Shown in pieces: positions 36,759 through 54,939 of a stretch of DNA of 64,000 nucleotides. The stretch comes from Notoacmeibacter marinus (lineage in GTDB: Bacteria; Pseudomonadota; Alphaproteobacteria; Rhizobiales; Rhizobiaceae): NCBI RefSeq assembly GCF_002238045.1, contig NZ_NBYO01000003.1:434001-498000 (forward strand), given 5' to 3'. The first letter of the stretch is position 1, and each line of letters begins with the position of its first letter. Under the pieces are notes generated by a model. The model was not told the origin of the DNA, did no database searches, and was given only the letters and a program-made list of their open reading frames with translations. A program made the translations under genes and the position numbers.

Positions 36759-38645
36759 CTATGCAATCTGAGGCTGCGTCGTCTCTGATGTGGGCGGGCG
36801 AGATGGCCGATATCCATCGACATACTCGCCCAGCAGTCGAATCACCGCTGCCTCATCGCAGGCGTCGATCATGCCGGCCAACCTTTCAAGCAGATCGTCC
36901 GGCGGCGTCGGCGCTCCTTCCTGCGCGCGCAGGATCTTGGAATGGGGCGTTGGCAGGCTGTCGTTGCCAATCAACAGTTCCTCGTAGAGCTTTTCACCCG
37001 GTCGCAGTCCCGTGATCTGGATCGCAATGTCACCGTCCGGGGTGTCTTCATCCCTGACAGTCATTCCGGACAGCTCGATCATGCGGCGGGCCAGGTCGAC
37101 GATACGCACCGGCTCGCCCATATCGAGCAGAAACACTTCGGCGCCTTCTGCAAACGCGCCCGCCAGCATCACAAGGCGGGCGGCTTCGGGGATGGACATG
37201 AAATAGCGCGTCACGTTCGGATCGGTCACAGTCACCGGACCGCCGGCCTCGATCTGCTCCCGGAACAGCGGAATGACCGAGCCGGAAGAGCCGATGACAT
37301 TGCCGAAGCGAACCGTGGCGTAGGTCGTCGCCGGAAACCGGTCGTGATACATCTGGACGGCGATCTCGGCCATTCTCTTCGTTGCCCCCATGACATTGGT
37401 GGGCCGGACCGCCTTGTCGGTGGAAACCAGCACGAAGCGCTCGATGCCAAGCTCACCTGCCGCCCGCGCCGCGCAGGCCGTGCCGAGAATATTGTTCTTG
37501 GCGCCCTCCAGCACATTGTCCTCCACCATCGGCACATGCTTGTAGGCAGCGGCATGAAAGACATTCGAGACGCTATGTCGGCCGATCACTTGTCGCAGGC
37601 GGTCGACATCCTGGACCGAGCCGAGACAGCTCACCAGTTCAATGCCGCGTTCATCGGCAATCGGCTGCAACTCTTTGGTGATGGTATAGAGCGCGAATTC
37701 AGCAACCTCGAAAAGGACCAGACGGCTCGGCGAGACCTGCATGATGCGCCGGCACAGTTCCGAACCGATGGAGCCGCCGGCGCCCGTCACCATGATGGTC
37801 GCGTCACGATAGGCTTCAGAAATGGTCTCGGAGGTCAAATCGACATGAGGTCTGTTGAGCAGATCGTCGGTCTCCACCGGGCGTATGGCTGTCATCACGC
37901 CGCCTGCCCGGATCAGATCCACATAGGATGGCAGTTCCAGAACGTCGACATCGAACTCGCTGATCGTGTGAAGCAGACGTCGCCGTGCGGGCGTCGAAAG
38001 AGAGGGAATCGCAAGAAAAACCGATTCGAAGCGCCCGGACGCCGCCAGCGAGCCCAGCGAATCCGGGCCGAAGACCCGCAGGCCCATGATTGTCGCGTTA
38101 CGCAGACCGGGCTTGTCGTCCACGAAGAGAACCGGACGGTACTCGGTCGACCGGCGAAGCGCAGACGCCAGCTGAACGCCGCCCGCCCCCGCGCCGTAAA
38201 TTGCAACCGGTTTGCGGTCGGATCCGCCATGACGGCTCCGGTCCAAAACCGCGCGCAGAATAAGCCTTGTCGCCAGGGCGCCGACGAAAAGCAGAAGGGT
38301 GAAGATAAGCGGCACGGTGCGCGGTGCGCCGAGCCAGAACAACACGTTCGCAAAGAAGACGGTCACGCCAATGCCGACGGCCCATATGGCCGTCCGCAGC
38401 ACCGCATTGCTGCCGAAGGTTGAAAGCTGGACCCTGTGGAGCCGTAGTGCGACCCCAAGCAGAATGGAAAGTCCCGTTGCCAGCAAGATCGCGTTTATGC
38501 TGTTCAGCACCCAGAATCGGGGTGTGAAGTCGTTGAGCCGCAGCATCATGGCGGCAATCCAGCAAAACGGCACCAGCAAGATATCCACGGCCAGCAGAAG
38601 CACGGCCTTCTGGCGTCGTGTCAGTCTGTCAGCATACCGATGCAT
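36759..38645 (-). CDS. Nucleotide-sugar 4,6-dehydratase (FlaA1/CapD/PglF/WbpM family)
   Basis: Membrane-anchored dehydratase predicted to convert UDP-GlcNAc to the 4-keto-6-deoxy sugar. The 628-aa protein has four N-terminal membrane helices and a first Rossmann region (AIYGAGAGGVQLASAL). The catalytic SDR domain has TGAGGSIGSELCRRI, FHAAAYKHVPMVEDN and the triad region STDKAVRPTNVMGATKR, where Met replaces the usual SDR Tyr, as in FlaA1-type enzymes. It is the last of four coupled genes with a phosphoglycosyl transferase, an acetyltransferase and an aminotransferase. That set matches PglF/E/D/C and suggests N,N'-diacetylbacillosamine. Confidence 0.9.
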   Translation of the reverse strand: MHRYADRLTRRQKAVLLLAVDILLVPFCWIAAMMLRLNDFTPRFWVLNSINAILLATGLSILLGVALRLHRVQLSTFGSNAVLRTAIWAVGIGVTVFFANVLFWLGAPRTVPLIFTLLLFVGALATRLILRAVLDRSRHGGSDRKPVAIYGAGAGGVQLASALRRSTEYRPVLFVDDKPGLRNATIMGLRVFGPDSLGSLAASGRFESVFLAIPSLSTPARRRLLHTISEFDVDVLELPSYVDLIRAGGVMTAIRPVETDDLLNRPHVDLTSETISEAYRDATIMVTGAGGSIGSELCRRIMQVSPSRLVLFEVAEFALYTITKELQPIADERGIELVSCLGSVQDVDRLRQVIGRHSVSNVFHAAAYKHVPMVEDNVLEGAKNNILGTACAARAAGELGIERFVLVSTDKAVRPTNVMGATKRMAEIAVQMYHDRFPATTYATVRFGNVIGSSGSVIPLFREQIEAGGPVTVTDPNVTRYFMSIPEAARLVMLAGAFAEGAEVFLLDMGEPVRIVDLARRMIELSGMTVRDEDTPDGDIAIQITGLRPGEKLYEELLIGNDSLPTPHSKILRAQEGAPTPPDDLLERLAGMIDACDEAAVIRLLGEYVDGYRPSRPPTSETTQPQIA

Positions 38646-39855
38646 TATGCAGCCGCTCCGGGCTCAAATCAAAGGAAGGAACTGTCAGACCCGGATGGAC
38701 AAGAAAGGTCAGGCTTGTTTCACCCATCCGTTTCGCTGTCGGCAGCCGTTCCGCCGGGCGGCAGCCATATCCATCGAACGCCTTTTCGAGATAGATTTCG
38801 GAGCAGCTTCCCTGCATGCAGGCGACGCCTTGCTCCTGCAAATGGCGGAGAATCCCGTCCCGATCGGCTCGATCTCCGGGCAGTCGTTCCGGTACGACAA
38901 AAGCGGTAAATCGGTACCATGCGTGACGGAATGAGTAATTCTGCATAGCCACCGCCTCATCGGACAGAAACGGGGGTGGAAGCTGTAGAAACCCGTCCGG
39001 ACCGCTATAAGGCGACAGCGCATCGTAAAGGCGGTCGGCATTTTTGCTGCGATCGGCATTCCACTGCTCCATCCGCCGAAGCTGAATACGGCCTATCGCC
39101 GCTTGCATCTCGATCATCCGGCCATTCATGCCGATGGATTCGTGCAGCCAACGAAATCCGGGCGGATGGTCGCGTTCATAAACCGCCTCATAACTCTTGC
39201 CATGGTCCTTGAACGCCCACATGCGACGCCATAAAGCCTCGTCATCGCACGTGACCATGCCGCCTTCACCACCGGTGGTCATGATCTTGTCCTGGCAGAA
39301 GGACCAGGCCGCGACATCGCCGAGGCCGCCAACCGGGCGTCCCTTGTAGAGCGCACCATGCGCCTGCGCGCAGTCCTCAATCAGGAAGACTTCATCGCCA
39401 ACCATCTGTCGAATGGCGTCCATATCGCAGGGCAGTCCGGCAAGGTGAACGCAGATGACGGCGCGCGTCCTTGGGGTCATCGCCGCCGCGATCGTATCCG
39501 GCTCCAGATTACCGCTCACAGCGCCGACATCGGCGAAGACCGGTTTCGCGCCAGCCTGGATCACGCATGAGGCCGATGCGATGAAACTGCGGGGCGTAAC
39601 GATCACCTCATCGTCGGCATCGCCGCCATTGGCCGTGCCGATGCGAAGGCCATGAAGCGCAAGTTCCAAAGCGACCGTTCCGTTCGCGACTGCGATAGCG
39701 TGATCGGTGGCGGCGAATGCGGCAAATTCGTCCTCGAACCGGCGGCATTCCTCTCCGGTCCAGTAATTGACCTTGTTGGACAGCAGAACGCGGCTGACCG
39801 CCTCCGCCTCCTCTTCGGTAAAGTTCGGCCAGGGGGCCATTGCAGACCCCGTCAC
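38629..39855 (-). CDS. DegT/DnrJ/EryC1/StrS sugar aminotransferase
   Basis: PLP-dependent aminotransferase acting on keto nucleotide-sugars, 408 aa. The Schiff-base lysine lies in WSFCQDKIMTTGGEGG. Other conserved blocks are KVNYWTGEE near the N-terminus, VANGTVALELAL, TPRSFIASASC and IEDCAQAHGA. The GTG start at 39855 overlaps the acetyltransferase stop (GTGA), and the 3' end overlaps the dehydratase gene by 17 bp. The simplest reading is a 4-aminotransferase like PglE acting on the dehydratase product. It is the only sugar aminotransferase in the window, so a WbpE-like 3-amination role cannot be excluded. Confidence 0.9.
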   Translation of the reverse strand: MTGSAMAPWPNFTEEEAEAVSRVLLSNKVNYWTGEECRRFEDEFAAFAATDHAIAVANGTVALELALHGLRIGTANGGDADDEVIVTPRSFIASASCVIQAGAKPVFADVGAVSGNLEPDTIAAAMTPRTRAVICVHLAGLPCDMDAIRQMVGDEVFLIEDCAQAHGALYKGRPVGGLGDVAAWSFCQDKIMTTGGEGGMVTCDDEALWRRMWAFKDHGKSYEAVYERDHPPGFRWLHESIGMNGRMIEMQAAIGRIQLRRMEQWNADRSKNADRLYDALSPYSGPDGFLQLPPPFLSDEAVAMQNYSFRHAWYRFTAFVVPERLPGDRADRDGILRHLQEQGVACMQGSCSEIYLEKAFDGYGCRPAERLPTAKRMGETSLTFLVHPGLTVPSFDLSPERLHNASVC

Positions 39856-40487
39856 GAGTTAGATCCGATTCGCTTGGACGGTGCCGCTGGCACACCCATA
39901 ACGGTGGTTCGGTCCGCAACATCGTTCACGACTGTCGCACCCGCTGCGACCATCACGTCCGCCCCGATATTTATGCCCTGCCGCACATTGGCCCCCATAC
40001 CTATCCAGCTTCGTTCGCCCACTGATACCGTGCCGGCAAGGTGCGCTCCCGGCGATAGGTGGACGGCATTATCGAGCCGGCAATCATGGTCGACCGTCGC
40101 GCCCGTGTTCACGATGCCGGCAGCGCCAATCGCAGCAAATGCTTGCAAGATGGCCCCCGCCATAATCACCGTTCCCGCTTCGATTGAAGAATGCGCCGAG
40201 ATAACGGCAGAAGGATGGACAATCCTGGGTAGAGACACCCCGGCAGACGCCAGTTCCTTGAAGAGCCGCAGCCGTGTTCCGTTGTCTCCGACGCTGACAA
40301 AGAGATCGCACTGAGCGGCCATTTCACGCCATTTGACCAAGGGACCGACAATGGGCCAAACGCCATTGGTATCACGGCTCCCAAAGCCATCGTCGAGAAA
40401 GACGACATCGCGCCATCCGGCCATGACGGCCGCGTCGGCAACAACCCGCCCATGACCGCCTGCCCCGAGTAAAACAAGCGTCTTCAT
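39852..40487 (-). CDS. NeuD/PglD-family sugar O/N-acyltransferase
   Basis: Left-handed beta-helix acetyltransferase, 211 aa. The N-terminal Rossmann-like part begins MKTLVLLGAGGHGRVVADAA, the PglD/NeuD hallmark. The C-terminal hexapeptide repeats include HPSAVISAHSSIEAGTVIM and VNTGATVDHDCRL, with the catalytic His in TVDHDCRL. The ATG at 40487 overlaps the upstream stop (ATGA); a longer reading into that gene is rejected. Placed between a phosphoglycosyl transferase and an aminotransferase, it most likely acetylates a 4-amino sugar, as in bacillosamine synthesis. Confidence 0.9.
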   Translation of the reverse strand: MKTLVLLGAGGHGRVVADAAVMAGWRDVVFLDDGFGSRDTNGVWPIVGPLVKWREMAAQCDLFVSVGDNGTRLRLFKELASAGVSLPRIVHPSAVISAHSSIEAGTVIMAGAILQAFAAIGAAGIVNTGATVDHDCRLDNAVHLSPGAHLAGTVSVGERSWIGMGANVRQGINIGADVMVAAGATVVNDVADRTTVMGVPAAPSKRIGSNS

Positions 40488-41074
40488 CGTTCGCCACGGA
40501 ACGGCGGCATGGTTGCCTCGCCCGCCGCGGAAACACCCGAACGGCCCATGACCGTCAGAACGGTCCGAAACAGGATTTTCAGATCCAGCCAGCATGTGCG
40601 GTTTTCGACATACCACACATCCATTTCAAACTTTTCCGGCCAGGATAAGGCGTTGCGTCCGTTGATCTGCGCCCAGCCCGTCAGCCCCGGCCGAACCGCG
40701 TGGCGCTTGCTCTGCCGTTCCGAATAGAGCGGCAGATACTGCACCAGAAGAGGTCGCGGTCCGACCAGACTCATATCGCCCTTCAGCACGTTCCAGAGTT
40801 CCGGCAATTCATCGAGCGAGGTGGACCGCAGCCAGCGGCCGAAGGGCGTCAGCCGTTGGGCGTCCGGAAGAAGCCGACCGTCGACATCGCGTTCATCGGT
40901 CATGGTCCTGAACTTCACCATTTCGAAGATCCGCCCATTCATGCCCGGTCTTTCCTGTCGGAACAGAACCGGCCGGCCCAAACGAAACGCCACCATGAGC
41001 GCCAGAACGGCCATCGGCGGACCAAGCATCGCAAGCGCGATCGATGATACCAGAATGTCCAGCAGGCGTTTCAT
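40484..41074 (-). CDS. Undecaprenyl-phosphate phosphoglycosyl transferase (PglC type)
   Basis: Starts glycan assembly by moving a sugar 1-phosphate from UDP-sugar onto undecaprenyl phosphate. The 196-aa protein is the small monotopic type: one N-terminal re-entrant hydrophobic segment, then RPVLFRQERPG, FEMVKFRTM, STSLDELPELWNVLKGDMSLVGPRP and RPGLTGWAQINGRN. The Asp-Glu pair in SLDELPE is the catalytic dyad region. It lacks the extra domains of WbaP-type enzymes. It is the first gene of the four-gene bacillosamine-type operon, which supports diNAc-bacillosamine as the first sugar. Confidence 0.93.
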   Translation of the reverse strand: MKRLLDILVSSIALAMLGPPMAVLALMVAFRLGRPVLFRQERPGMNGRIFEMVKFRTMTDERDVDGRLLPDAQRLTPFGRWLRSTSLDELPELWNVLKGDMSLVGPRPLLVQYLPLYSERQSKRHAVRPGLTGWAQINGRNALSWPEKFEMDVWYVENRTCWLDLKILFRTVLTVMGRSGVSAAGEATMPPFRGER

Positions 41075-41289: not shown

Positions 41290-41886
41290 ATGAACTATTT
41301 CAAGCACGAGAGTGCGATCGTCGATGATGGCGCGGTTCTGGGGGAAGGCTGCCGCGTCTGGCACTTCGTTCATATTTGCGGCGGCGCGCGAATCGGCGCG
41401 CAGTGCTCCCTCGGTCAGGGCGTCTTCGTCGGCAACGATGTGCGGATCGGCGACGGGGTGAAGATCCAGAACCATGTCAGCGTGTATGACGCGGTGACAC
41501 TGGAGGACGACGTCTTCTGCGGTCCGTCCATGGTGTTCACCAATGTCTACAATCCCCGTGCGGCGGTCGAACGGAAGACCGAATATCGACGCACAATCGT
41601 GCGCAAACAGGTGACACTTGGCGCCAATTGCACGATCGTATGTGGCGTCGAGATCGGCCAGGGCGCTTTCATTGCGGCGGGGGCCGTCGTCAATCGCGAT
41701 GTCAGAGACTGGGCCTTGGTCGCCGGCGTGCCGGGTCGCCAGATCGGCTGGATGAGCGCCCATGGCGAGCGTCTGGATCTGCCTCTGGAAGGCGATGCCG
41801 AAGCGCAATGTCCTGCGACCGGCGACCGCTATGTCCTGCGCGGTTGCGATGTGCGTCGCGAACCCTACGGTTCGCAGCCTAACTGA
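41290..41886 (+). CDS. Hexapeptide N-acetyltransferase (WbpD/WlbB-like)
   Basis: Predicted 3-N-acetyltransferase for UDP-2-acetamido-3-amino uronic acids. The 198-aa product starting [20 protein letters not shown] has the typical WbpD/WlbB length and N-terminus. Hexapeptide turns follow ([19 protein letters not shown]), then [16 protein letters not shown] and the CoA-binding repeats near [21 protein letters not shown] longer reading to 41149 has no similarity and is not used. It opens the plus-strand set with the flippase. It fits with the WlbA/WbpB- and WbpA-like dehydrogenases about 10 kb to the right. Confidence 0.85.
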
Positions 41887-42021: not shown

Positions 42022-43335
42022 ATGCTACGGCCGAGCATGACACGCCTGAGGGCCGCGACCACGCATTTGGTGCGGCACCCACTGCTTCGCGACGTCACGA
42101 AGCTGATGTCTGGTACCGCCATCGCGCAAGCGATCGGCCTCTTGGCCTCCCCTCTTCTGACCCGCCTTTTCTCCCCGAACGATTTCGGCATCTTCTCCAT
42201 CATGATCGCGATGATGACGATCATTGGCGTCTGGGCCACGCTGCGTCTCGACATGATGATCCCGCCGGCGCGCATTGCCGATGCCAGCGCCTTCGTTCGC
42301 TTAATGAATCTGCTCTCAATGCTATTGGCGCTCTGTTCGGCCGGCATCGTCTTCATGTTCGGGCCGGCCATTGCCCGCCTGATAAAACTGCCGCCGGAAA
42401 CCGATGCCGTTCTGTGGCTGCTGCCAATCCTGCTGGTCGCCAATGCCGCTTTCATGGCCATGCGGGCGCTCTCCGTTCGCGAGGGCCGTTTCTCGCGTGT
42501 CGGCGTGTCCGCAATCATTCGCGTCGGGGGCATGACCCTCTTCTGGCTGGCCATCGGCGCAGCCCTTTCGCCGGATGATAGATATGCCGTGATGCCCATC
42601 GGTCACGCATTGGGCCTATTGGCAGCCGCCGCCTATCTCGCGTCGAGCCTGCCAGCGCGCAGCCTGAATCTCCTTCGGTTCGTCCGGCCGCAGTCGATCG
42701 GGCGGGCTCTGAAGGGGCAGATACCCATGGTGGCGGCCGTTGCCGTCGGCCAGACCTTCTCCGTTATCGCCCAGCGCCTACCGATCTTTGTCATCGCGGT
42801 GGCCTATGGCCCTGTTTACGCTGGCTTTTATGCGCTTGCCGAACGGATCGTCCTGGCGCCATCCGTGCTCGTGGCGAACGCCATGGGCGATGTGTACAGA
42901 CAGCGCGCCTCGAAAATGATGCGCGAGGGTCACAGCTTCGCACCGCTTTTGCGTCGCATGGCATTCGCTACGTTCGGACTATCGGCCGCCGGCTTTGTCC
43001 TCCTCGGCCTCATTGTCGTCCCGAACATGGGTTTAGTTTTCGGAATTGAATGGTTGGGTGCAGCATTCACTGTGGCCATCCTGATCGTGAATGCCGCCGT
43101 CGGGTTCGCAACGACGCCGTTCGATTGCACATCGGTCATCGTTGGCGCACGGCGATATGTCGTTGGCTGGCAGACCGCGCGAGTGGCTGGTGTGGTCGCC
43201 TGTTCCGCTGCGGCACTCTATGGGGGATTGTCCTATGAAGTCTTTCTCATCGCCCTCGTTTGCGTTCGGACACTTCTGTATCTCGTCGATTTTATCGCAG
43301 TGAATGTGTTTGCCCGCGTTGCTAACAAGCCATAG
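42022..43335 (+). CDS. Polysaccharide flippase (Wzx family)
   Basis: Integral membrane protein predicted to flip undecaprenyl-linked repeat units to the periplasm. The 437-aa sequence shows about twelve hydrophobic helices and the family N-terminus with SGTAIAQAIGLLASPLLTRLFSPNDFGIFSI. A second half starts at GRALKGQIPMVAAVAVGQTF. It is followed by the C5-epimerase-like and Wzy-like genes in the same direction, the normal setting for Wzx. An alternative Met five codons downstream is possible. Confidence 0.9.
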   Translation: MLRPSMTRLRAATTHLVRHPLLRDVTKLMSGTAIAQAIGLLASPLLTRLFSPNDFGIFSIMIAMMTIIGVWATLRLDMMIPPARIADASAFVRLMNLLSMLLALCSAGIVFMFGPAIARLIKLPPETDAVLWLLPILLVANAAFMAMRALSVREGRFSRVGVSAIIRVGGMTLFWLAIGAALSPDDRYAVMPIGHALGLLAAAAYLASSLPARSLNLLRFVRPQSIGRALKGQIPMVAAVAVGQTFSVIAQRLPIFVIAVAYGPVYAGFYALAERIVLAPSVLVANAMGDVYRQRASKMMREGHSFAPLLRRMAFATFGLSAAGFVLLGLIVVPNMGLVFGIEWLGAAFTVAILIVNAAVGFATTPFDCTSVIVGARRYVVGWQTARVAGVVACSAAALYGGLSYEVFLIALVCVRTLLYLVDFIAVNVFARVANKP

Positions 43336-43350: not shown

Positions 43351-44466
43351 ATGCTGATCAGCTTACTGCAACGCGTCATGCCATTTCGCCGACGATTAGC
43401 TTGGTCCGCAATATTGGGAATGTTCGTTGGTGCAATTCTTGTCAACAGCTTCGCCTACGAGCTGGAGCAGTTCAACTCCGTCTCTCGTGTTTTTCTGAGA
43501 AACGGAACAACAAGTCTCCGTTCCTTCAACACTGAGGGCCTACCGGTTTCACAAGACCCACGACAGCAACGGGAATTCATTTCACCCTTTTACGTCGTTC
43601 ACTACGGCCTGATTCATTCGAAAACATGCCCCCAGTTCGGTGAGGCATCGAGTTATCACTGGAAGAACGATAGCACGGAGAAATATTGGAACGCCCCTCC
43701 CAAAACTTTGTCTTCCGATATATTTCGAATCTCAGCAGATTGGGTTGTCAACAACATTGCCCGAGATGATAACGGCAATGCACATCTGTTCTACGAGTTC
43801 GATTGGCCTTACGCCAACCTCAACGGAGCCCCCTTGACTGCTCCGTGGTGGTCGGGCCTTACCGATGCAGTGGCAATTTTGCTAATGCTTCGTGCTCACG
43901 ACTGCCTCGGCGGCGATAAATATCTCGACTCCGCTAGAGACCTTTATGATTCTGTCGTCACTCCGTTCGCCGATGGTGGAAGTCTTACCAGATTGAATGG
44001 CCTGCCCTGGGTCGAGGAGTATGCCGACGATCACATTGCCGAAAACGATCTCTCAAGGGTGCTCAACGGCATGGTCTATGCCTATCACGGCATTCGAGCC
44101 CTCGAAGAGCGAGAGCAAGTCGCGCGTTACGCCCCGTCATTTCGAGCTGCCATCTACAAGAACGCCGACTTGTTCTCGAAGGGATACTGGTCCTACTACG
44201 ACAACATCGGCAACGCATCGAACATCAAGTACCATGCCATCAATCTCGCCCTGCTGAAAGACCCAAGAATTGCCGAGGAGGCAAGCATGCAGGTTGAAAA
44301 AAAATGGGCAATCGGTCATCGATTTCCAATTGTCTTCTACCTGCTAGAGGGCCCCCTTTCTGTTGCGAAAATACATTTCGCACTCATATCCGTTCTTATC
44401 ATATCACTCTGCGGACTTGTTGCTTCAGTTGGCTTCCACGTCCTCCAACGCAAAAAATCACGATGA
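43351..44466 (+). CDS. Membrane-tethered D-glucuronyl C5-epimerase-like protein
   Basis: A 371-aa protein resembling the C-terminal catalytic part of D-glucuronyl C5-epimerases. Visible family blocks are APWWSGLTDAVAILLMLRAH (about residues 165-183), LPWVEEYADD, SRVLNGMVYAYHGIRAL and GYWSYYDNIG followed by YHAINLALL. Hydrophobic segments near both termini (about 18-36 and 345-365) would tether it with the domain outside the cytoplasm. The likely reaction is inversion at C5 of uronic acids in the growing polymer. It lies between wzx and the wzy-like gene, 15 bp after the former and overlapping the latter by 4 nt. The sequence is more AT-rich than its neighbours. Confidence 0.72.
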   Translation: MLISLLQRVMPFRRRLAWSAILGMFVGAILVNSFAYELEQFNSVSRVFLRNGTTSLRSFNTEGLPVSQDPRQQREFISPFYVVHYGLIHSKTCPQFGEASSYHWKNDSTEKYWNAPPKTLSSDIFRISADWVVNNIARDDNGNAHLFYEFDWPYANLNGAPLTAPWWSGLTDAVAILLMLRAHDCLGGDKYLDSARDLYDSVVTPFADGGSLTRLNGLPWVEEYADDHIAENDLSRVLNGMVYAYHGIRALEEREQVARYAPSFRAAIYKNADLFSKGYWSYYDNIGNASNIKYHAINLALLKDPRIAEEASMQVEKKWAIGHRFPIVFYLLEGPLSVAKIHFALISVLIISLCGLVASVGFHVLQRKKSR

Positions 44467-45788
44467 AGCGCCTGGCATTTGTCGCACTTTCAATAATAAT
44501 GATATCGTTCCTCAATTATACGATTGGCGCGATATGTGATCGATTTTATTTCGTCGAAGGATTTCAATGTCTTGAACCCCAAATATTCGATATCGTATTT
44601 TTGTCTTTAATTGTCATAGTTCCATCTTTTTTTCTACCCACAGACGACGGCGGCGAAACAATGGTGCTCTGGTATGTTTATTTTTTTCATATCATGAGCG
44701 CTGTCTCGGGAATACTATATCTTAGCCAAATTAATTCAGATTATTATATATTTACTTTATTCTTTGTTGTCACATTTACGATCGGATCGCGCATAATTGC
44801 CAATTTGCAATCCAGATTTGTTGTCGTGAATCTCGACATCAAGACCGTTGAGTATGGCGCGGTTGCGGTGTCTGCTTTGGCATTGGCCACTCTACTGACA
44901 GTCTTTTCAATAACTTTTATACTCCCCAGCATTACAGACGTCTATGGCGTTCGTAGTGAATACAAGGCAGCAATCGAGACTACATCTGTAAGGATTCTCT
45001 CCTATCTTCCGATATGGTCAGGTTATGTTTTTGCTGTGGTGTGTATTTTTTTGGCCACGATATCTTATTTTCGGGGCCGTACGGTGTTGGCCCTCGGAAT
45101 TTTTGCTCTGGCTGCAACGCATTCACTGGCCGTTTTTTCGCTAGCAGCGTATAAAAGCGTGGCTTTCATTTTTTTGATTGTCCTGGTGCTCCTCTTTGTT
45201 CTGAGTAGAAGCAAATCCCCACTTCTTACATTTCTGTGCGGGTTGCTCGGAGTTGGCATTTTTGCGCTTCTTATCGCGGCGGCAGGATTTAACGACGACG
45301 GTTACTATCACTGGGTTCGTCGTTCGATGATCGCGCCGGGTATGAATGTTGCATACCATTTGGAATTGTTCGGGCTCTGGAACAGTCAGAGCTACCCGGA
45401 CGCACCGCGGCTCGTCAGTGAGACTTTCTATGGCACGAGCGGGAGCGCCAACACCGGCATGTTGGGCGCAGGAATTGGGCGGGGCGGCCTGCTGGGCGTG
45501 GCCATGCAGATGCTTGTGTTCTTTGTGTTTCTCGCTGTCCTGAAGATCGCGACAAGAAATGTCCCGCCCGCGTTTTCGATGGCGCTCTGCCTGCCGACCG
45601 CATATGCCTTCACCAACAGCTCGGCAACGACGACTCTTGTGACCTATGGCGCAGCTTTTATTGCCATCTTCCTGTTTCTTTGGGGCTCCGCCCTCGCTAC
45701 GAGATCAAGAACGCTCCTTCTTCGATCCGGAACCGGATCTGATCGCTATTTCGGAAACTGGATACAGACGAGAGTGCCGGGCCGCTGA
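44463..45788 (+). CDS. Wzy-like polysaccharide polymerase
   Basis: Polytopic membrane protein of 441 aa with ten or more predicted helices and a long periplasmic loop (about residues 275-335, containing HWVRRSMIAPGMNVAYHLELF). Sequence conservation in this family is low, so the call rests on topology, length and position between wzx and glycosyltransferase genes. The ATG at 44463 overlaps the upstream stop (ATGA). The first 500 bp are markedly AT-rich with many ATA and TTT codons, unlike the rest of the window, suggesting recent acquisition. Confidence 0.75.
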   Translation: MKRLAFVALSIIMISFLNYTIGAICDRFYFVEGFQCLEPQIFDIVFLSLIVIVPSFFLPTDDGGETMVLWYVYFFHIMSAVSGILYLSQINSDYYIFTLFFVVTFTIGSRIIANLQSRFVVVNLDIKTVEYGAVAVSALALATLLTVFSITFILPSITDVYGVRSEYKAAIETTSVRILSYLPIWSGYVFAVVCIFLATISYFRGRTVLALGIFALAATHSLAVFSLAAYKSVAFIFLIVLVLLFVLSRSKSPLLTFLCGLLGVGIFALLIAAAGFNDDGYYHWVRRSMIAPGMNVAYHLELFGLWNSQSYPDAPRLVSETFYGTSGSANTGMLGAGIGRGGLLGVAMQMLVFFVFLAVLKIATRNVPPAFSMALCLPTAYAFTNSSATTTLVTYGAAFIAIFLFLWGSALATRSRTLLLRSGTGSDRYFGNWIQTRVPGR

Positions 45789-45790: not shown

Positions 45791-46897
45791 ATGAACATTC
45801 TTCACATCACTTCCGTTCACGCCCGCAACGATACGCGTATCTTCAACAAGATGTGCCAATCGCTTGCCGCTGACGGCGCGGAGGTCACGCTGATCATGGC
45901 CGACGGCTTGGGCGACGCGGTTGTCGGTGGCGTCGAGATCGTCGATGTCGGCGGCAGCGGCACTCGGGTCGACCGTATGATCAGAGCGGTCCGCCGGGTC
46001 GCGGGGGCGGCTGCGACGCGTTCGCCGGATATCATTCATTTCCACGATCCCGAATTCATCCAGATGATTCCGGCGCTCAGAAAAACGGGCGCGAAAATCG
46101 TCATGGACGCTCATGAGGATGTGGAGAAGCAGATCTTTTCCAAACCCTATCTGCACCCCGCCACCCGAAAACTCGTCTCGCTCGCCTACAGCCTGGTGGA
46201 ACGTCGCATGATACGCCATGTGGATCTGGTCATCGGAGCGACTCCGGCAATTTCGGCCAAATTCGAAGGGCAAGGCCTGAGAACCGCGACCGTCAACAAT
46301 TTTCCCATACTGGGCGAACTCGCCGTGCCAGACATCGACTGGACATTGAAGCAGCCCGTCGCCTGTTATGTCGGCGGGATGTCCGCCATTCGCGGCGCGT
46401 CGCAGGTGGGACAGGCTGCCGCGCTGCTGGAGCCGCCCATCACCATCGAGTTCGCAGGAGGCTTCGCACCGCCGGAACTGGGCGAAACGGTCGCAACGCT
46501 TGGCGGCGATCGGATAAAGCGGCTCGGTCATCTCGACAGGGAGCAGGTGCGCGACCTCATGGCGCGTTCGATGGCCGGCATCGTCACCTTTCTGCCCGCG
46601 CCCAATCATATGGACGCTCAACCCAACAAGATGTTCGAGTATATGAGCGCCGGGCTGCCGGTCATCGCCTCCGATTTTCCGCTGTGGCGGCAGATCATTG
46701 CCGAGGCCGATTGCGGTATTCTCGTCGACCCCATGGACCCGAAGGCGATCGCCGACGCCATCAACGCGCTCGTCAACGATCCGGAGCGCGCCGAACGGCT
46801 CGGCCGCAACGGCCAGCGAGCCGTCAGGGAGCGCTACAACTGGGCCAGCGAGTTCGCCACGCTGCAAAATGCCTATGAACGGCTCATAGCCGCCTGA
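45791..46897 (+). CDS. Glycosyltransferase, GT4-like
   Basis: Cytoplasmic GT-B glycosyltransferase, 368 aa. N-terminus MNILHITSVHARNDTRIFNKM is typical of a GT4 subgroup found in O-antigen and exopolysaccharide clusters. The C-terminal donor-binding region has PAPNHMDAQPNKMFEYMSAGLPVIASDFPLW (E-x7-E-type area) and LVDPMDPKAIADAI. It begins 2 nt after the polymerase stop and returns to the GC-rich codon use of the window. Donor and acceptor are unknown; it should add one sugar of the repeat unit. Confidence 0.88.
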   Translation: MNILHITSVHARNDTRIFNKMCQSLAADGAEVTLIMADGLGDAVVGGVEIVDVGGSGTRVDRMIRAVRRVAGAAATRSPDIIHFHDPEFIQMIPALRKTGAKIVMDAHEDVEKQIFSKPYLHPATRKLVSLAYSLVERRMIRHVDLVIGATPAISAKFEGQGLRTATVNNFPILGELAVPDIDWTLKQPVACYVGGMSAIRGASQVGQAAALLEPPITIEFAGGFAPPELGETVATLGGDRIKRLGHLDREQVRDLMARSMAGIVTFLPAPNHMDAQPNKMFEYMSAGLPVIASDFPLWRQIIAEADCGILVDPMDPKAIADAINALVNDPERAERLGRNGQRAVRERYNWASEFATLQNAYERLIAA

Positions 46898-46965: not shown

Positions 46966-48045
46966 ATGAGCAAGACGGTGATGACCGTGATTGGCGCGCG
47001 GCCACAATTCATCAAGGCTGCCACGACCTCGCGCGCATTTCTGGGCACGGAAGGTATTGACGAGCGCATTGTCCATACCGGCCAGCACTACGATGACAAT
47101 ATGAGCGCGGTCTTCTTCGAAGAACTCGGCATTCCGGCGCCGCACCACCATCTCGGCATCGGTGGCGGCGGTCACGGTGCCATGACGGGCCGGATGCTGG
47201 AGGCGCTCGAACGCGTGATGCTGGATGAGCGGCCCGACCTGGTGTTGCTGTTCGGCGATACCAACTCGACGCTTGCCGGCGCGCTCGCCGCCGCCAAGCT
47301 GCACGTGCCGGTCGCCCATGTGGAGGCCGGCCTGCGCTCCTTCAACCGACGCATGCCCGAGGAAATCAACCGCATTCTGACCGACCATTGTTCGGCGCTG
47401 CTTTTTCCGCCCACGGCAACCGGCACTACCAATCTGAAAGCTGAGGGCATCGCGGGCGACAAGGTGATCGAGGTTGGCGACGTGATGTATGATGCAGCGC
47501 TCATGTTCGGCGAGCTGGTCGAACGGCGCGGCAGCGAACATCGCCCCAGTGGCGACTATGTTCTGGCCACCGTCCACCGCCAGGAGAACACCGACGATCC
47601 CGCGCGCCTGGACGCCATTATCGACGGGCTGGCGGAGGTTTCCGAACAGATTGCCGTGGTCCTGCCGCTGCATCCGCGCACCGCGGCCCGAATCGGCGCC
47701 GACCGCCGCGCCACCCTGCCAGAGAACTTTCGCGTTATCGATCCGGTCGGCTATCTGGACATGGTCGCCCTGCAAAAGGGCGCCTGCGTCATCGCGACCG
47801 ATTCCGGCGGCGTGCAGAAGGAAGCCTTCTTCCATGGCGTGCCGGCCATCACGCTGCGCGACGAGACCGAATGGACCGAACTGATCGACAGCGGCTGGAA
47901 CCGCCTGGTGACGCCGACCTCTTCCGCGGATGTCCGTGAGGCGATCCTCGCGATGCGGTGCCAGAAGGGCGAAGACATGCAGCCCTATGGCGACGGCGAT
48001 GCCGCCGGAAAGATTGTCGCGGCCATCGAAAAGGCACTGGCATGA
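46966..48045 (+). CDS. wecB: UDP-GlcNAc 2-epimerase family, non-hydrolysing (WecB/WbpI)
   Basis: Inverts C2 of UDP-GlcNAc or of its 2,3-diacetamido uronic acid derivative. The 359-aa protein has VIGARPQFIKAA, HTGQHYDDNMS, HVEAGLRSFNRRMPEEINR and DSGGVQKEAFF, all typical of the GT-B-like epimerases. The family cannot be split safely into WecB (ManNAc) and WbpI (ManNAc3NAcA) by eye. The presence of WbpA-, WlbA/WbpB- and WbpD-like genes in the same region makes a WbpI-like role attractive. AGGAG precedes the start. Its stop overlaps the next ATG (ATGA). Confidence 0.88.
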   Translation: MSKTVMTVIGARPQFIKAATTSRAFLGTEGIDERIVHTGQHYDDNMSAVFFEELGIPAPHHHLGIGGGGHGAMTGRMLEALERVMLDERPDLVLLFGDTNSTLAGALAAAKLHVPVAHVEAGLRSFNRRMPEEINRILTDHCSALLFPPTATGTTNLKAEGIAGDKVIEVGDVMYDAALMFGELVERRGSEHRPSGDYVLATVHRQENTDDPARLDAIIDGLAEVSEQIAVVLPLHPRTAARIGADRRATLPENFRVIDPVGYLDMVALQKGACVIATDSGGVQKEAFFHGVPAITLRDETEWTELIDSGWNRLVTPTSSADVREAILAMRCQKGEDMQPYGDGDAAGKIVAAIEKALA

Positions 48046-49265
48046 GCCGCATCTGGATCATCAATCAGTACGCCTCCATTCCCAAGACTGGCGTCGGTGG
48101 CCGCCACCGTCATCTGGCACGCGAACTGACCGGCCTAGGCCATGAGGTGACGGTCATCGCGGCGAGCTGGACACATCTTCATCCAGCGGAACTCGACCCC
48201 AAGACACTGCCCTTCAGCGAGCAGTTCGAAGGGTTTACCTTCGTCCATCTGCCCGTGCCGCCTTATGCCCATGCTCACGACAAGAAGCGCGTGCTCAACT
48301 GGCTGCGTTTTTCCGCCGCCCTGCCCGGCCTGCCGAAGCGGCTGAACGCCAAACCGGATATCGTCCTGGTATCCTCGCCGAGCCCCTTCGCCTATCTGGG
48401 CGCGGAAAGGCTGGCGCGCCGCGTCGGCGCAAAGCTGGTTTTCGAGGTGCGGGACATCTGGCCGCTTTCGCTGGTCCAGATCGGTAATTACAGCCCGCGT
48501 CACCCGATGATTCGCCTGATGCAGTGGATCGAGGATCGCGCCTATCGCAACAGCGATGCCGTCATCTCCAACCTGCCCGGCGCAGTGGAGCATATGATCG
48601 AACGCGGCATGGACCCCGGAAAGTTTGCCTGGATCCCCAACGGTTTTTCGAAGCGGGACGTTGAGGACCCGGAACCAGTTGACGGAGAGATCGAGGCGAT
48701 GCTTCCGGCTGACAAGTTTATTGTCGGCTATGCGGGCACGGTCGGCGTGGCCAACGCCCTTGATACGCTTGTGGATGCCGCGACGCTGATGAGAGACCAG
48801 CCCGATATCCTATTTGCCATTATCGGCGAAGGGCGTGAAAAGCCAAAATTACAAGGGTTGGTAAAAGACCGGGGTCTATCAAACGTCACTTTTGTTCCAC
48901 GGGTGCCGAAACGCCAGATCGCCACGGTTTTGCAGCGTCTCGCGGTGTGTTATTTCAGTCTTCTGCCGGATGAGGTTTTCAAGTTCGGGATCGCGTCCAA
49001 CAAGTTTTTTGACTATCTCGTTGCCGCGAAACCTATTTTATACGCTGTCGATTCCGGGGTCTATCGACCGGTCGACGACTTCGATTGCGGCATTACGGTT
49101 CCACCGGTTTCACCTGAGGCGGTTGTACACGCGATTCTCGAACTTAAGAATTCCTCGAAAACCCGTCTCCAGGACATGGGCGCGAACGGGCGCGCAGCCG
49201 CCTATAACCACCATGAATACAGCCAAATCGCGCGCAAGCTCGATGCAACCCTTTCGAACCTCTGA
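48042..49265 (+). CDS. Glycosyltransferase, WbuB-like GT4
   Basis: GT-B glycosyltransferase of 407 aa. N-terminus IWIINQYASIPKTGVGGRHRHLARELTGLGHEV closely follows the WbuB subgroup. Later blocks are VFEVRDIWPLSL, IPNGF, VGYAGTVGVANALDTLVDAA and KFGIASNKFFDYLVAAKPI. WbuB enzymes transfer N-acetylated deoxy sugars in O-antigens; the donor here is unknown. Coupled to the 2-epimerase gene by a 4-nt overlap, it may use that enzyme's product. It converges with the DUF2793 gene, 14 bp apart. Confidence 0.88.
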   Translation: MSRIWIINQYASIPKTGVGGRHRHLARELTGLGHEVTVIAASWTHLHPAELDPKTLPFSEQFEGFTFVHLPVPPYAHAHDKKRVLNWLRFSAALPGLPKRLNAKPDIVLVSSPSPFAYLGAERLARRVGAKLVFEVRDIWPLSLVQIGNYSPRHPMIRLMQWIEDRAYRNSDAVISNLPGAVEHMIERGMDPGKFAWIPNGFSKRDVEDPEPVDGEIEAMLPADKFIVGYAGTVGVANALDTLVDAATLMRDQPDILFAIIGEGREKPKLQGLVKDRGLSNVTFVPRVPKRQIATVLQRLAVCYFSLLPDEVFKFGIASNKFFDYLVAAKPILYAVDSGVYRPVDDFDCGITVPPVSPEAVVHAILELKNSSKTRLQDMGANGRAAAYNHHEYSQIARKLDATLSNL

Positions 49266-49279: not shown

Positions 49280-50629
49280 CTATCGCCAGACTTCCAGGCT
49301 TGGCGTAACCAGGACGATCTGGCCGTCGCCCATAGCAGCATGGCCAGGCATGACGGTGGGCGCAGCCAACAGAAGCTCCGTGCCGGGCGTAGCATAGAAG
49401 CCGAACGCCGATGGGTGATAACCTGCAAAGCCGGATGCGTCTCTGTCGTACAGACGGGTCGCCTGACGCCAGCCATCCGACGGGGCGATCCGCGTCGTCG
49501 AGGCGACCTGCCAGCCGTCGATGAAGGTGCGGCCGAGGCTGTCGGCCAGAATGGCAGCGGATCCGGACAATACACGAATATGATAATTGACGGTCAATTG
49601 CGCAGGGATCGGCACGCTCGGCGACGTGACGACGAGGAAGTGTGATTGCGCGTCTGGCACAGCTATGGGTGCGGCAGTACCAGCGCCCGCAATAATGCGT
49701 AGCGTATGAAATTCGACACCATAGCGCCGCGCCGTGCCCGTTCGAAGCCCGCTCACCAGCGCTTCGATTTCGCCGTCGAGCACGCCCCCCGAACCGCCGA
49801 ACGTCGCGTTGTTGTGGTGGAATTGCGGGCCCGTGGCGATCTGCGCACCATTGTAAGACGATATGTAGTTCGGTGCGACGAAGGACCCCGCATAAACCGA
49901 CGTGGACTCAGGCGCACCACCGAAGCGGCCACCATCTTTCAGCAAGTTGAACGGCGCGGCGATCGGCGGCGTGGCCGGCAGTGCCACCCGGCCGGATTGA
50001 CGGTCCACGACGATGGCCGGATGAAAGTCCGATCCATTCGCCGAGACTTTCATCTGAAGGTCGTCCTCTTCATTAAGCCCTATCTCCGCGCGTCCTGCGA
50101 AACCGGTCTGCAGAATAAGGCTCGCCGAATCGTTCTCCGACTTTCTGTTCAGCGCCACCCGGACGCTGCCATTGCCCGGCGTGACGTCGTCATGACTGAA
50201 GAGGACGGCATCGGACTTCACCGCCAGCCGGTTGGTCGCATCGGGATCGGTGTTGACGCCCAATTGCGGTGTCATCGTATGCCACCGGGACAACAAATTC
50301 ACCCATTCGGCTCCATCGAACACAAGCAGGATAGCCTCATCGACGATATAGGCCAGCCAGCCCGGGCGCGGTTCGCAGAAGGACCAGCCACCGTCCTGCC
50401 AAGCCGCCAGTTCGCTATCATGTCCGTCCCAAGCGCCGAGAGCCTGCCCACCGACGATCCAGCAATCCCCATCCTGTGGGTCCAGAGACTGCGGATCCGC
50501 AACACTGCGGCTGCGCGGAGCAGCCTGTACCAGCATGTCGAGAAGCTTCAACGCTTCGTTCACCGTGACATGCTTCTGCGCCTGCTGCGGATAAAGATAG
50601 GGCAGCGCCAGGTTTGCTGTGGTCGACAT
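49280..50629 (-). CDS. DUF2793 domain-containing protein
   Basis: Protein of 449 aa, no signal peptide or membrane segment. The N-terminal DUF2793 domain (about residues 1-110) reads LALPYLYPQQAQKHVTVNEAL and later DGDCWIVGG, FCEPRPGWLAYI. The domain is best known from phage and gene-transfer-agent-related loci of alphaproteobacteria, where it is linked to tail or host-recognition proteins. The remaining 340 residues look like beta-rich repeats. No other phage gene is present; the neighbours are all sugar genes. A glycan-binding or surface role is possible but unproven. AAGGAT precedes the ATG. Confidence 0.82.
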   Translation of the reverse strand: MSTTANLALPYLYPQQAQKHVTVNEALKLLDMLVQAAPRSRSVADPQSLDPQDGDCWIVGGQALGAWDGHDSELAAWQDGGWSFCEPRPGWLAYIVDEAILLVFDGAEWVNLLSRWHTMTPQLGVNTDPDATNRLAVKSDAVLFSHDDVTPGNGSVRVALNRKSENDSASLILQTGFAGRAEIGLNEEDDLQMKVSANGSDFHPAIVVDRQSGRVALPATPPIAAPFNLLKDGGRFGGAPESTSVYAGSFVAPNYISSYNGAQIATGPQFHHNNATFGGSGGVLDGEIEALVSGLRTGTARRYGVEFHTLRIIAGAGTAAPIAVPDAQSHFLVVTSPSVPIPAQLTVNYHIRVLSGSAAILADSLGRTFIDGWQVASTTRIAPSDGWRQATRLYDRDASGFAGYHPSAFGFYATPGTELLLAAPTVMPGHAAMGDGQIVLVTPSLEVWR

Positions 50630-50783
50630 GACTCAATCATCCTTGTTCGATGGCGGAGTCATTCTAACAGTTGCGTGAAGGTGGTGAATTTGAGTCGATC
50701 GTGGTGACGGCTCCTCCGACATCAAGTGATCGGGCGTTCGACTACGATAAAAAACGGATCGCGACGGCGATCGATCCGGGAGA

Positions 50784-50901: not shown

Positions 50902-51858
50902 TCAGCTCTTCTGCGCTGCCTCGGGCAAGTCGCCCGGCGTCACCGGCAACGTCCGGATAGCCGCAACCGTTTCGATCGAAGGGCGGGTTTCTGAGAGAGG
51001 GAACCCGTTCCCCTTGAGAATTTCCTGATATGACAATGTGTGCAGATCGGTGAAGCCTGCCGAAAATTCAATCTCGCTGCCATCGACAGTAATCGAGCGG
51101 AAAGTTCGCTGCCCTGCCTCTTTTTGTGCAGCCGGCAAATCGTCACTGTCGATTGAAAGGAACCAACGAACACGAGCGCGTTCATATTCAAGGTACCCCC
51201 CAGCCTTGGTTTCCTCGCGCAAATGAAGCCGGTTTTCCTGCAGGTCGCCGAAGACGAAATACAACATATCGAAGAAATGCACTCCGATATTCGTTGCTAT
51301 GCCGCCGGATTTCTTGTCGTCGCCCTTCCAGCTGCGCAGATACCAATTGCCGCGTGACGTGATATAGGTCAGATCGACTTCATGCTTTGCGCTCTGATCT
51401 GCCGCTTTAACCCTGTCGCGCAATTCGATGATAGACGGATGAAGCCGCAATTGAAGGATCGTATTGATCTTGCGATCGGTCGACCGTTCGATCTCCTGCA
51501 GGCCGTCGATATTCCAAGGATTTAGTACGACCGGTTTTTCACAAATGGCATCGGCCTCGGAGCGCAGCGCAAATCGGATATGGCTGTCGTGTAGGTGATT
51601 TGGCGAACAGATCGAGACATAGTCGATATTCGGCCCGTTCGCGCGCCGCATCTTGTCGATATGGCGATCGAACCGTTCGAACTCAGTGAAGAAACGGGTA
51701 TCGGGATAATAGCTATCGATCACACCGACAGAATCGTTTGGGTCGAGAGCCGCCATCAGGTTGCCGTCGACTTCACGGATCGCCTTCAGGTGACGTGGCG
51801 CGATATATCCCCCAAGTCCGATAAGAGCGAAATTGCGTTTGGTTTGATCGGTCTGCAT
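50902..51858 (-). CDS. Gfo/Idh/MocA oxidoreductase (WlbA/WbpB-like)
   Basis: Predicted UDP-N-acetyl-glucosaminuronate 3-dehydrogenase, which makes the 3-keto sugar for later amination. The 318-aa protein has the N-terminal NAD-binding loop GLGGYIAPRHLKAI, ICSPNHLHDSHI and the signature EKPVVLNPWNI, whose Lys is catalytic in the family. The substrate-domain region TSRGNWYLRSWKGDDKKSGG and the GVHFFDMLYFVFG block strongly resemble WlbA. It is divergent from the WbpA/TviB-like gene across a 443-bp gap. WbpB-type enzymes normally work with a WbpE aminotransferase, not recognised nearby. Confidence 0.88.
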   Translation of the reverse strand: MQTDQTKRNFALIGLGGYIAPRHLKAIREVDGNLMAALDPNDSVGVIDSYYPDTRFFTEFERFDRHIDKMRRANGPNIDYVSICSPNHLHDSHIRFALRSEADAICEKPVVLNPWNIDGLQEIERSTDRKINTILQLRLHPSIIELRDRVKAADQSAKHEVDLTYITSRGNWYLRSWKGDDKKSGGIATNIGVHFFDMLYFVFGDLQENRLHLREETKAGGYLEYERARVRWFLSIDSDDLPAAQKEAGQRTFRSITVDGSEIEFSAGFTDLHTLSYQEILKGNGFPLSETRPSIETVAAIRTLPVTPGDLPEAAQKS

Positions 51859-52301: not shown

Positions 52302-53573
52302 ATGAAGCTCGAGGGAAAAATCGCCATTATCGGTTTGGGCTATGTCGGCCTACCGTTGGCTGTCGCCTTTGGTGAAAAGCGACCAGTGATCGGTTTCGAC
52401 ATTCGTCAGCAGCGAATCGGTGAGCTTCGGGCGGGCAAGGACGCCACGCTCGAAACCACGGACGATGAGCTGGCTGCGGCAACGCAACTGACCTATACGA
52501 GCGATCCGGACGATCTGAGGGGATGCCAGACCTTCATCATCACCGTGCCGACGCCCGTAGACAACGCCAACCGGCCCGATCTGACCCCAGTGCGGATGGC
52601 ATCACAAACGGTCGGAAGGCTTATCGGACCGGACTCGGTCGTTATCTACGAATCAACCGTTTTCCCCGGATGCACGGAAAATGTCTGCGTGCCTATCCTG
52701 GAGGCGGAAAGCGGCTTGAAGCACAACCGCGATTTTTATACCGGTTACTCGCCGGAACGCATCAATCCTGGCGACCGGACACACCGCCTGCAGACCATCG
52801 TCAAAGTCACGGCTGGCTCCACGCCCGATGTCGCCAAGGCAGTCGACGCGCTCTATGGCGAAATCATCGAGGCCGGAACCTATAAGGCTTCATCGATCGA
52901 GGTGGCCGAAGCCGCCAAAGTTATCGAAAACACACAGCGGGACGTCAACATCGCCCTGATGAACGAACTCTCGATCATCTTCGACAAACTCGATATCGAC
53001 ACGATGGAGGTTTTGAAAGCGGCCGGCACAAAGTGGAATTTCCTGCCGTTTCGACCGGGACTGGTCGGCGGACACTGTATCGGCGTGGATCCCTATTACC
53101 TCACCTACCGCGCCGAAGAGATCGGCTATCATCCGCAGGTCATCCTGGCCGGTCGACGCATCAATGACGGCATGGGCCGTGGCGTGGCCGACCGTGTCAT
53201 GAAACTGATGATGAAGCGTGGCTTCCCTGTGGTAAACAGCCGCATTCTCGTTCTCGGCCTGGCGTTCAAGGAAAACTGCCCGGACCTCCGCAACAGCAAG
53301 GTGATCGATGTTATCGAAGCCCTTGCGGACTTCAATGCGAAACTTGATGTTCACGATCCGTGGGCGAACGCAGAGCAAGCCAATCACGAATATGGCGTCG
53401 ATCTCGTCGAAGCGCCCGAAGAAGGCGTTTACGACGCCGTGATCCTGGCTGTTGGCCATCGCGAATATATCGATATGGGCGCCGAAAAGTTACGGACTTT
53501 CGGCAAGCCGGGCGCCGTTTTCTACGATGTCAAATCGGTCTTCGAGCGAAGCGAGAGCGACGGAAGACTTTAA
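52302..53573 (+). CDS. UDP-GlcNAc 6-dehydrogenase (WbpA/TviB-like)
   Basis: NAD-dependent enzyme oxidising C6 of a UDP-N-acetylhexosamine to the uronic acid. The 423-aa protein has IAIIGLGYVGLPLAVAFGE, YESTVFPGCTE, GYSPERINPGD and the catalytic Cys in GLVGGHCIGVDPYYLTYRA. The GHCIGVDPYYL block separates the WbpA/TviB group from the GGSCFPKD group represented by the neighbouring Ugd. It would give UDP-GlcNAcA for the WlbA-like enzyme. It converges with ugd, 61 bp apart, with an 8-bp inverted repeat between the genes. Confidence 0.9.
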   Translation: MKLEGKIAIIGLGYVGLPLAVAFGEKRPVIGFDIRQQRIGELRAGKDATLETTDDELAAATQLTYTSDPDDLRGCQTFIITVPTPVDNANRPDLTPVRMASQTVGRLIGPDSVVIYESTVFPGCTENVCVPILEAESGLKHNRDFYTGYSPERINPGDRTHRLQTIVKVTAGSTPDVAKAVDALYGEIIEAGTYKASSIEVAEAAKVIENTQRDVNIALMNELSIIFDKLDIDTMEVLKAAGTKWNFLPFRPGLVGGHCIGVDPYYLTYRAEEIGYHPQVILAGRRINDGMGRGVADRVMKLMMKRGFPVVNSRILVLGLAFKENCPDLRNSKVIDVIEALADFNAKLDVHDPWANAEQANHEYGVDLVEAPEEGVYDAVILAVGHREYIDMGAEKLRTFGKPGAVFYDVKSVFERSESDGRL

Positions 53574-53634: not shown

Positions 53635-54939
53635 TCAGGGGCGGCCGAGCGAGTGATAAGTCAGCCCGAAGCTGCGCACCTCCTCTGGACGATAGATGTT
53701 ACGCAGGTCAATCAGTATCTTGTCGGCAAGGCTGTCGCTCAGACGCTTCATGTCCAGTGCACGGAACTCGTTCCACTCCGTCAGAATCACCGCGAGGTCA
53801 GCGCCCCGCAACGTGTCGTAAGCGTCGTCGGCATAGGTTACATCCTCAAAATGCCGCCTGGCTTCGCCGATCGATTCCGGATCGAAAGCACGGATCGTAG
53901 CGCCCATCTTCTGCAGAGCGGGAATAATGGCGAGCGAAGGCGCATCGCGCATGTCATCGGTATTCGGTTTGAAGGCCAGACCGAGAACCGCAACCGTCTT
54001 GCCTTCCAGCGAACCGCCGGCAGCCCGCTTGATGCGCTCCGCCATCGACGCCTTCCTCCGATCGTTCGAAGCGATCACGGCATCGACGATGGTGACCGGC
54101 GTGCCTGCGTCACTCGCCGTCCGCGACAGGGCCAGCGTGTCCTTTGGAAAGCAGGAGCCGCCATAGCCGGGACTGGCGTGCAGAAACTTCGAGCCGATGC
54201 GGTTATCGAGACCGATGCCGCGTGAGACCTGCTGTACATCGGCGCCCATCGCCTCGCACAGATCGGCCATCTGATTGATGAAGCCGATCTTGGTCGCCAG
54301 AAAAGCGTTGGCGGCATACTTGATCAGTTCCGAGGTGCGACGGTCGGTCACGACCAGAGGCGTTTCGTTAAGGTAAAGAGGACGATAGAGTTCGCGCATG
54401 ACTTTCTCTGCGCGTTCAGATGTAACGCCGACGACCACGCGGTCGGGCCGTTTGAAGTCCTCGATCGCTGCGCCTTCCCTCAGAAATTCCGGATTGGATA
54501 CCACGTCGAAATCGGCATCCGGGTTGGATCGCGCGATGATCGCCTCGACCTCGTCACCGGTCCCGACCGGCACGGTCGATTTCGTGACGACGACCGTCGG
54601 GCCGTTCAAATGGCGCGCCAGTTCTTCGGCGGCTGCGTAGACATAGGTGAGATCGGCATAGCCGTCGCCACGGCGGCTGGGCGTGCCAACGGCGATGAAA
54701 ACGACATCGGCTTCGGCGACCGGGTCCGCCAGTTCGGTCGTGAACGACAGCCGGCCGGCCTCGACATTGCTTTCGACGAGGCGGTCGAGTCCGGGCTCGT
54801 AAATCGGCATGACGCCATTGTTGAGCTTTTCGACGCGCTCGGCGTTCTTGTCGACGCAGACCACTTCATGGCCGAAATCGGCAAAGCAGGTTCCCGAGAC
54901 CAGGCCGACATAGCCCACTCCGATCATGACGACGCGCAT
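53635..54939 (-). CDS. ugd: UDP-glucose 6-dehydrogenase
   Basis: Oxidises UDP-glucose twice to UDP-glucuronate. The 434-aa protein begins MRVVMIGVGYVGLVSGTCFADFGHEV and has VTKSTVPVGTGDEV, NPEFLREGAAIEDF and the catalytic Cys in GYGGSCFPKDTLAL. GAGGGA precedes the start. It is followed, further along the minus strand, by the convergent WbpA/TviB-like gene, and preceded by the UDP-glucuronate 4-epimerase 142 bp upstream. With GalU it supplies glucuronate and, through the epimerase, galacturonate. Confidence 0.93.
   Translation of the reverse strand: MRVVMIGVGYVGLVSGTCFADFGHEVVCVDKNAERVEKLNNGVMPIYEPGLDRLVESNVEAGRLSFTTELADPVAEADVVFIAVGTPSRRGDGYADLTYVYAAAEELARHLNGPTVVVTKSTVPVGTGDEVEAIIARSNPDADFDVVSNPEFLREGAAIEDFKRPDRVVVGVTSERAEKVMRELYRPLYLNETPLVVTDRRTSELIKYAANAFLATKIGFINQMADLCEAMGADVQQVSRGIGLDNRIGSKFLHASPGYGGSCFPKDTLALSRTASDAGTPVTIVDAVIASNDRRKASMAERIKRAAGGSLEGKTVAVLGLAFKPNTDDMRDAPSLAIIPALQKMGATIRAFDPESIGEARRHFEDVTYADDAYDTLRGADLAVILTEWNEFRALDMKRLSDSLADKILIDLRNIYRPEEVRSFGLTYHSLGRP

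Follow-up and report, generated by a model that had tools for sequence, protein, structure and literature searches.

A membrane-tethered Glce-fold protein encoded between wzx and wzy in Notoacmeibacter marinus: a candidate C5-epimerase for aminouronic residues

The animal relative of the protein considered here makes the L-iduronic acid of heparin, and the occurrence of such a protein in a bacterial polysaccharide locus raises the question as to which sugar it might act upon. Its gene lies in a 64,000-nucleotide stretch of the Notoacmeibacter marinus genome (hereafter the window), for which a first-pass annotation had proposed conversion of D-uronic to L-uronic residues on the polymer or a lipid-linked intermediate, with an iduronate- or gulose-type product.

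The catalytic domain and its active site

The gene is an intact open reading frame with an ATG start at 43351-44466 on the forward strand, encoding a protein of 371 residues. Its sole Pfam match is to the C5-epim_C domain (PF06662) over residues 145-304, with 90.5 bits (E 1.2e-25) against a curated cut-off of 23.3 bits, in agreement with the earlier recognition of blocks typical of the catalytic C-terminal part of Glce. A search of the PDB with the single sequence returned chance matches only. A profile built from three tethered members, namely this protein and its homologs from a different genus within the family (G017) and from an Emcibacteraceae metagenome-assembled genome (L010), recovered the Glce structures 4PW2, 6HZZ and 6I01 with E-values of 4e-13 to 1e-10 (4e-13 for zebrafish and 4e-11 for human GLCE). 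The catalytic residues of human GLCE are E499, Y500, N510, Y560 and Y578 (PMC13308652), and these align with E223, Y224, N239, Y283 and Y294 respectively, the equivalences being numbered by counting along the printed alignment (human WYEEY, VLNG, YDLRH and WDYH). Thus, the whole set of catalytic tyrosines and acidic residues sought by the first-pass annotation is retained. In the substrate- and product-complex entries 6I01 and 6I02 the last catalytic tyrosine appears as phenylalanine. All five residues are invariant in an alignment of the three tethered proteins, and in an alignment of 12 divergent members the asparagine is present in every sequence and the glutamate in 11 of the 12.

An initial AlphaFold model computed from the three sequences had a pLDDT of 58, and Foldseek returned no match below 0.001 for it. 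The model from the 12-member alignment is of medium confidence (pLDDT 73.9, pTM 0.75), and its loop 283-291, which carries one of the catalytic tyrosines, has a pLDDT below 50. GLCE chains make up all of its best eight Foldseek matches in the PDB (E 1.5e-5 to 5e-5), the same chains that were reached by the sequence profile, with a TM-score of about 0.44 over about 224 columns for this medium-confidence model. The match is confined to the C-terminal helical part of Glce. Residues 1-120 comprise a transmembrane helix and a short mixed segment, and the N-terminal β-hairpin dimerisation and β-sandwich domains of full-length Glce (EC 5.1.3.17) have no counterpart in the profile, model or Foldseek comparisons.

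The protein is thus a member of the Glce-fold family with an intact catalytic set, and it probably acts as a C5-epimerase on a polymeric or lipid-linked uronic residue. Uronyl epimerases and lyases have their first chemical step in common, and the profile alignment shows a shorter loop than in Glce between the two most C-terminal catalytic tyrosines; both features could be accommodated by a periplasmic lyase that uses C5-proton removal to cleave uronyl 4-linkages, thereby clearing misplaced polymer or limiting chain length. Such an activity seems highly improbable given that the entire acid-base set of Glce is retained and that the nearest folds are those of Glce rather than of lyases.

Gene neighborhood and membrane topology

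The predicted genes for assembly of the repeat unit around the epimerase gene are:

36759..41074, reverse strand: pglF/pglE/pglD/pglC-like set (Pfam families)
42022..43335, forward strand: wzx-type flippase (PF13440; PF01943, Polysacc_synt)
43351..44466, forward strand: C5-epimerase-fold protein, 371 residues (PF06662, Glce profile match, Foldseek, topology)
44463..45788, forward strand: Wzy-like polymerase with 11 predicted transmembrane segments (size, place, transmembrane count)
45791..46897, forward strand: GT4 glycosyltransferase, 51% identical to the one following wzy in G017
47958..49265, forward strand: GT4 (WcaI-like) glycosyltransferase, true start possibly downstream of 47958

The flippase gene ends 15 bases before the start of the epimerase gene, which in turn overlaps the Wzy-like gene by an ATGA stop-start at 44463-44466, so that the reported position between a flippase and a polymerase gene holds. 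The product of 44463-45788 matched no family in a Pfam search; it is about 32% identical to the protein encoded at the same place in G017. Parts of a Wzx/Wzy-dependent pathway found in the window include Wzx, a Wzz-type co-polymerase, an export protein and, as initiating transferase, a Bac_transf protein, with Wzy assigned by place and transmembrane count. The pgl-like set is predicted to make an N-acetylated 4-amino sugar and to attach it to lipid phosphate, thereby initiating the repeat unit. This placement of the epimerase gene implies action on a lipid-linked or polymeric sugar. Two further Wzy_C (ligase/polymerase) proteins are encoded at 31628-33070 (reverse strand) and 56317-57639 (forward strand), and hence more than a single polysaccharide system may be partly represented in the window. 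In a 763-residue reading frame at 57606-59897 (reverse strand) a nucleotidyl transferase domain, similar to mannose-1-phosphate guanylyltransferase, is fused to a GlcNAc 2-epimerase-family domain.

The hydrophobic segments noted at both ends of the epimerase map to residues 16-38 and 334-366, and in all three tethered proteins a hydrophobic helix lies close to either terminus, most of the positive charges being found on the outer flanks. Under the positive-inside rule this arrangement would make both termini cytoplasmic and the catalytic domain periplasmic. The tether and the location next to wzx and wzy in three loci might also suggest a catalytically inactive, structural partner of Wzx or Wzy that merely retains the fold, but the invariance of the catalytic residues among members that are 35-44% identical overall makes this highly improbable. 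A distant C5-epim_C protein of 319 residues in genome G1404 (L027:1363-2322, reverse strand), encoded between GT4 and wzx genes, is devoid of end helices and might carry out the corresponding step in the cytoplasm.

Sugar supply at the locus and in related genomes

The first-pass annotation had looked to glucuronate (GlcA) supply and did not identify the first four of the following genes, which correspond to the pathway for UDP-2,3-diacetamido-2,3-dideoxy-D-mannuronic acid (UDP-ManNAc3NAcA):

41290..41886, forward strand: wbpD-type UDP-GlcNAc3NA N-acetyltransferase directly upstream of wzx (299 bits to 3MQG; 68% identical to the L010 homolog)
46966..48045, forward strand: wbpI-type UDP-GlcNAc3NAcA 2-epimerase (436 bits to 8SXV/8SXY)
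50902..51858, reverse strand: wbpB-type UDP-GlcNAcA 3-dehydrogenase (383 bits to P. aeruginosa WbpB, 3OA2; 64% identical to L010 wbpB)
52302..53573, forward strand: TviB/WbpA-type UDP-HexNAc 6-dehydrogenase (573 bits to the TviB model, just below its cut-off of 592)
49280..50629, reverse strand: DUF2793 protein (PF10983; 37% identical to L011:6658-8106, and also found beside the G017 epimerase locus)

WecB of the UDP-ManNAcA pathway was rejected as an identity for 46966-48045, which scores 154 bits to E. coli WecB (1F6D) versus 436 to the WbpI-type structures. The pathway to UDP-ManNAc3NAcA proceeds in five steps catalyzed by WbpA, B, E, D and I (PMC10622841). Four of these are represented in the window, B, D and I clearly and A by the TviB-like protein just under its cut-off. 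The DegT gene inside the window is PglE-like in appearance, and a wbpE homolog (51% identity) that may perform the aminotransferase step lies beyond the window on the same contig (G000:C3:616363-617457), separated from the epimerase gene by about 138 kb; it stands alone, in a region with Na/Ca exchanger and ABC transport genes, and this location counts against the assignment of the locus to ManNAc3NAcA. Together, wbpD, wbpI, wbpB and the wbpA/tviB-like gene are predicted to make UDP-ManNAc3NAcA, and the genes around the epimerase do not appear to be mainly for GlcA. The reading frame 49706-50704 (forward strand) was discarded as a gene as it lies opposite the DUF2793 gene. DUF2793 proteins adjoin four C5-epim_C loci, those of the window, G017, G1404 and G1293 (49280-50629, reverse strand; L011:6658-8106; L036; L037), and in G017 the DUF2793 gene also adjoins type I secretion genes.

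The searches recovered only two close homologs of the epimerase, that of G017 (44% identity) and that of the Emcibacteraceae genome, which belongs to another order (40% over the best segment). It is a rare gene, with a single further match among 397 genomes of the order and no additional one among 385 genomes of the class; the search of viral contigs yielded no relatives, and P0001 had no matches in plasmids or in E. coli. The order wzx-epimerase-wzy, with or without an intervening asnB, is common to both homologous loci, and both contain Wbp genes: wza-wzc-wbpB-wbpD-wbpE-wzx-epimerase-wzy in L010 (wbpB and wbpD being assigned by comparison) and DUF2793-wbpA-wzx-asnB-epimerase-wzy-GT-Gfo/Idh-wbpD-wbpI-wbpE in G017, where comparisons of the Gfo/Idh gene fit neither a WbpB nor a WlbA assignment firmly. 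Asparagine-synthase-type amidotransferase genes occur near C5-epim_C genes in several genomes (L011:10870-12813; L036; L044; L039; L040; L025). Amidation of the uronic carboxyl would raise the acidity of C5 and could be coupled to epimerisation.

A broader association is seen across the family, where 9 of 376 genomes gave a match to the three-member profile. A WbpI of this type, counted at 350 bits or more, is found in 19 of 298 genomes: six of the seven with a C5-epim_C match as opposed to 13 of the 291 without one (Fisher p 2e-7, n=298; 3e-6 without the source genome), with G1293, which has no WbpI, assumed as a cautious choice to be among the 298, and with the p-value being optimistic because the genomes are related by descent and both genes reside in polysaccharide clusters. 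In five genomes 1-6 kb separate the two genes, and in the sixth (G1404) the distance is about 21 kb. C5-epim_C loci without a nearby WbpI, which speak against the association, occur in G336, G1293, G1388 and G1319, the two genes being on different contigs in the last of these. On a Priestia megaterium plasmid a distant member of the family is paired with a WbpI-like gene (49% identical).

The window also contains a possible alternative supply of substrate:

53635..54939, reverse strand: ugd, UDP-glucose 6-dehydrogenase (638 bits to 4A7P)
55082..56191, reverse strand: NAD-dependent SDR sugar epimerase/dehydratase, possibly a UDP-GlcA 4-epimerase

Of the pair reported by the first-pass annotation, ugd is borne out by its score, whereas UDP-GlcA 4-epimerase is only a plausible label for 55082-56191, the best solved relative of which is labelled a dTDP-glucose 4,6-dehydratase and which scores far under the TviC cut-off. 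These genes, 9-12 kb away, are the reason for retaining the alternative that the same enzyme acts on GlcA or GalA to give L-iduronic or L-altruronic acid, an option also favored by the family name and by the action of characterized members on GlcA (PMC13308652, PMC4432689). This alternative appears unlikely, though less so than the two discussed above, given that both genes are on the opposite strand to the epimerase and that WbpI co-occurs with the epimerase family far above background. Moreover, the 34 kb examined at the G017 locus contain no close match to ugd or the 4-epimerase, and uronate genes there are only of the Wbp kind.

Proposed function and relationship to known C5-epimerases

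The reading that we favor, with a probability of roughly 0.55, is that the protein is a periplasmic Glce-fold epimerase converting ManNAc3NAcA to L-GulNAc3NAcA. A helix at either terminus would anchor it in the inner membrane, and its (α/α) catalytic domain would project into the periplasm. Wzx would flip the lipid-linked repeat unit, and the epimerase, acting beside Wzx and Wzy, would remove the C5 proton of an aminouronic residue and return a proton from the other face by means of the Glce acid-base set. The most likely substrate, somewhat more probable than not, is a ManNAc3NAcA residue derived from the WbpA/B/E/D/I pathway, and its C5 inversion around the time of polymerisation, on the lipid-linked repeat or nascent chain, would yield L-GulNAc3NAcA. 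The general proposal of polymer-level or lipid-linked conversion accords with the fold, catalytic set, tether at both ends and wzx/wzy location, whereas GlcA from ugd and the 4-epimerase gives way as the probable substrate to the product of the recurring Wbp genes. Likewise, of the two product types envisaged earlier the gulose type fits better; iduronate is less likely than an amino-substituted L-guluronate because the surrounding and recurring genes are those for UDP-ManNAc3NAcA. That the tethered Glce branch with the wzx-epimerase-wzy order, present in at least two alphaproteobacterial orders, as a whole constitutes a periplasmic ManNAc3NAcA to L-GulNAc3NAcA C5-epimerase is a proposition that we regard as evenly poised.

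The protein resembles GLCE (human 6HZZ/6I01/6I02, zebrafish 4PW2/4PXQ) in its helical catalytic domain, five catalytic residues and expected action on an in-chain sugar, and differs in having no match to the β-hairpin and β-sandwich, a shorter Tyr-Tyr loop, the tether at both ends and a likely aminouronic substrate. The Glce family itself is not new to bacteria, as RED65_08024 of Bermanella marisrubri, likened here by its description, is a heparosan C5-epimerase that acts on GlcA in a heparosan-type polymer (PMC4432689); as the one characterized bacterial Glce homolog, with GlcA as its substrate, it counts against the ManNAc3NAcA reading. In their mode of working two other enzymes are comparable. 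Agl32 of Halobacterium salinarum performs C5 inversion on a lipid-linked oligosaccharide in archaeal N-glycan synthesis, but has no Glce catalytic residues and works at a stage that precedes transfer across the membrane (PMC13308652). The mannuronan C5-epimerase AlgG carries out a periplasmic D-manno to L-gulo inversion on the nascent polymer, but belongs to another protein family and uses plain mannuronate.

The O-antigen loci of the P. aeruginosa O2 serogroup (wbpA/B/E/D/I) encode the same UDP-ManNAc3NAcA pathway, and mannuronic/guluronic variants of the repeat have been drawn for this serogroup with no C5-epimerase named (PMC4815439). Amino- and diaminouronic acids of L-gulo configuration are constituents of surface polysaccharides in V. 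cholerae (VPS), V. alginolyticus (EPS) and V. anguillarum/V. ordalii, and as of 2015 the epimerase responsible in VPS was given as unknown (PMC3901696, PMC7600630, PMC3210612, PMC4815439, PMC4432689); we make no claim that the protein described here is identical with the VPS enzyme. In the open-licence literature, which misses most subscription papers, our search found no enzyme assigned to the conversion of ManNAc3NAcA to GulNAc3NAcA, and no description of the tether at both ends, the wzx/wzy location or the tie to ManNAc3NAcA.

If true, the above proposal would supply an enzyme class for L-gulo-configured aminouronic acids. Through a Glce-type enzyme with ties to the Wbp pathway, L-gulo aminouronic sugars would become connected with the family of the heparin epimerase, the step would be open to direct testing, and an enzyme would be available for the production of rare L-aminouronic acids.
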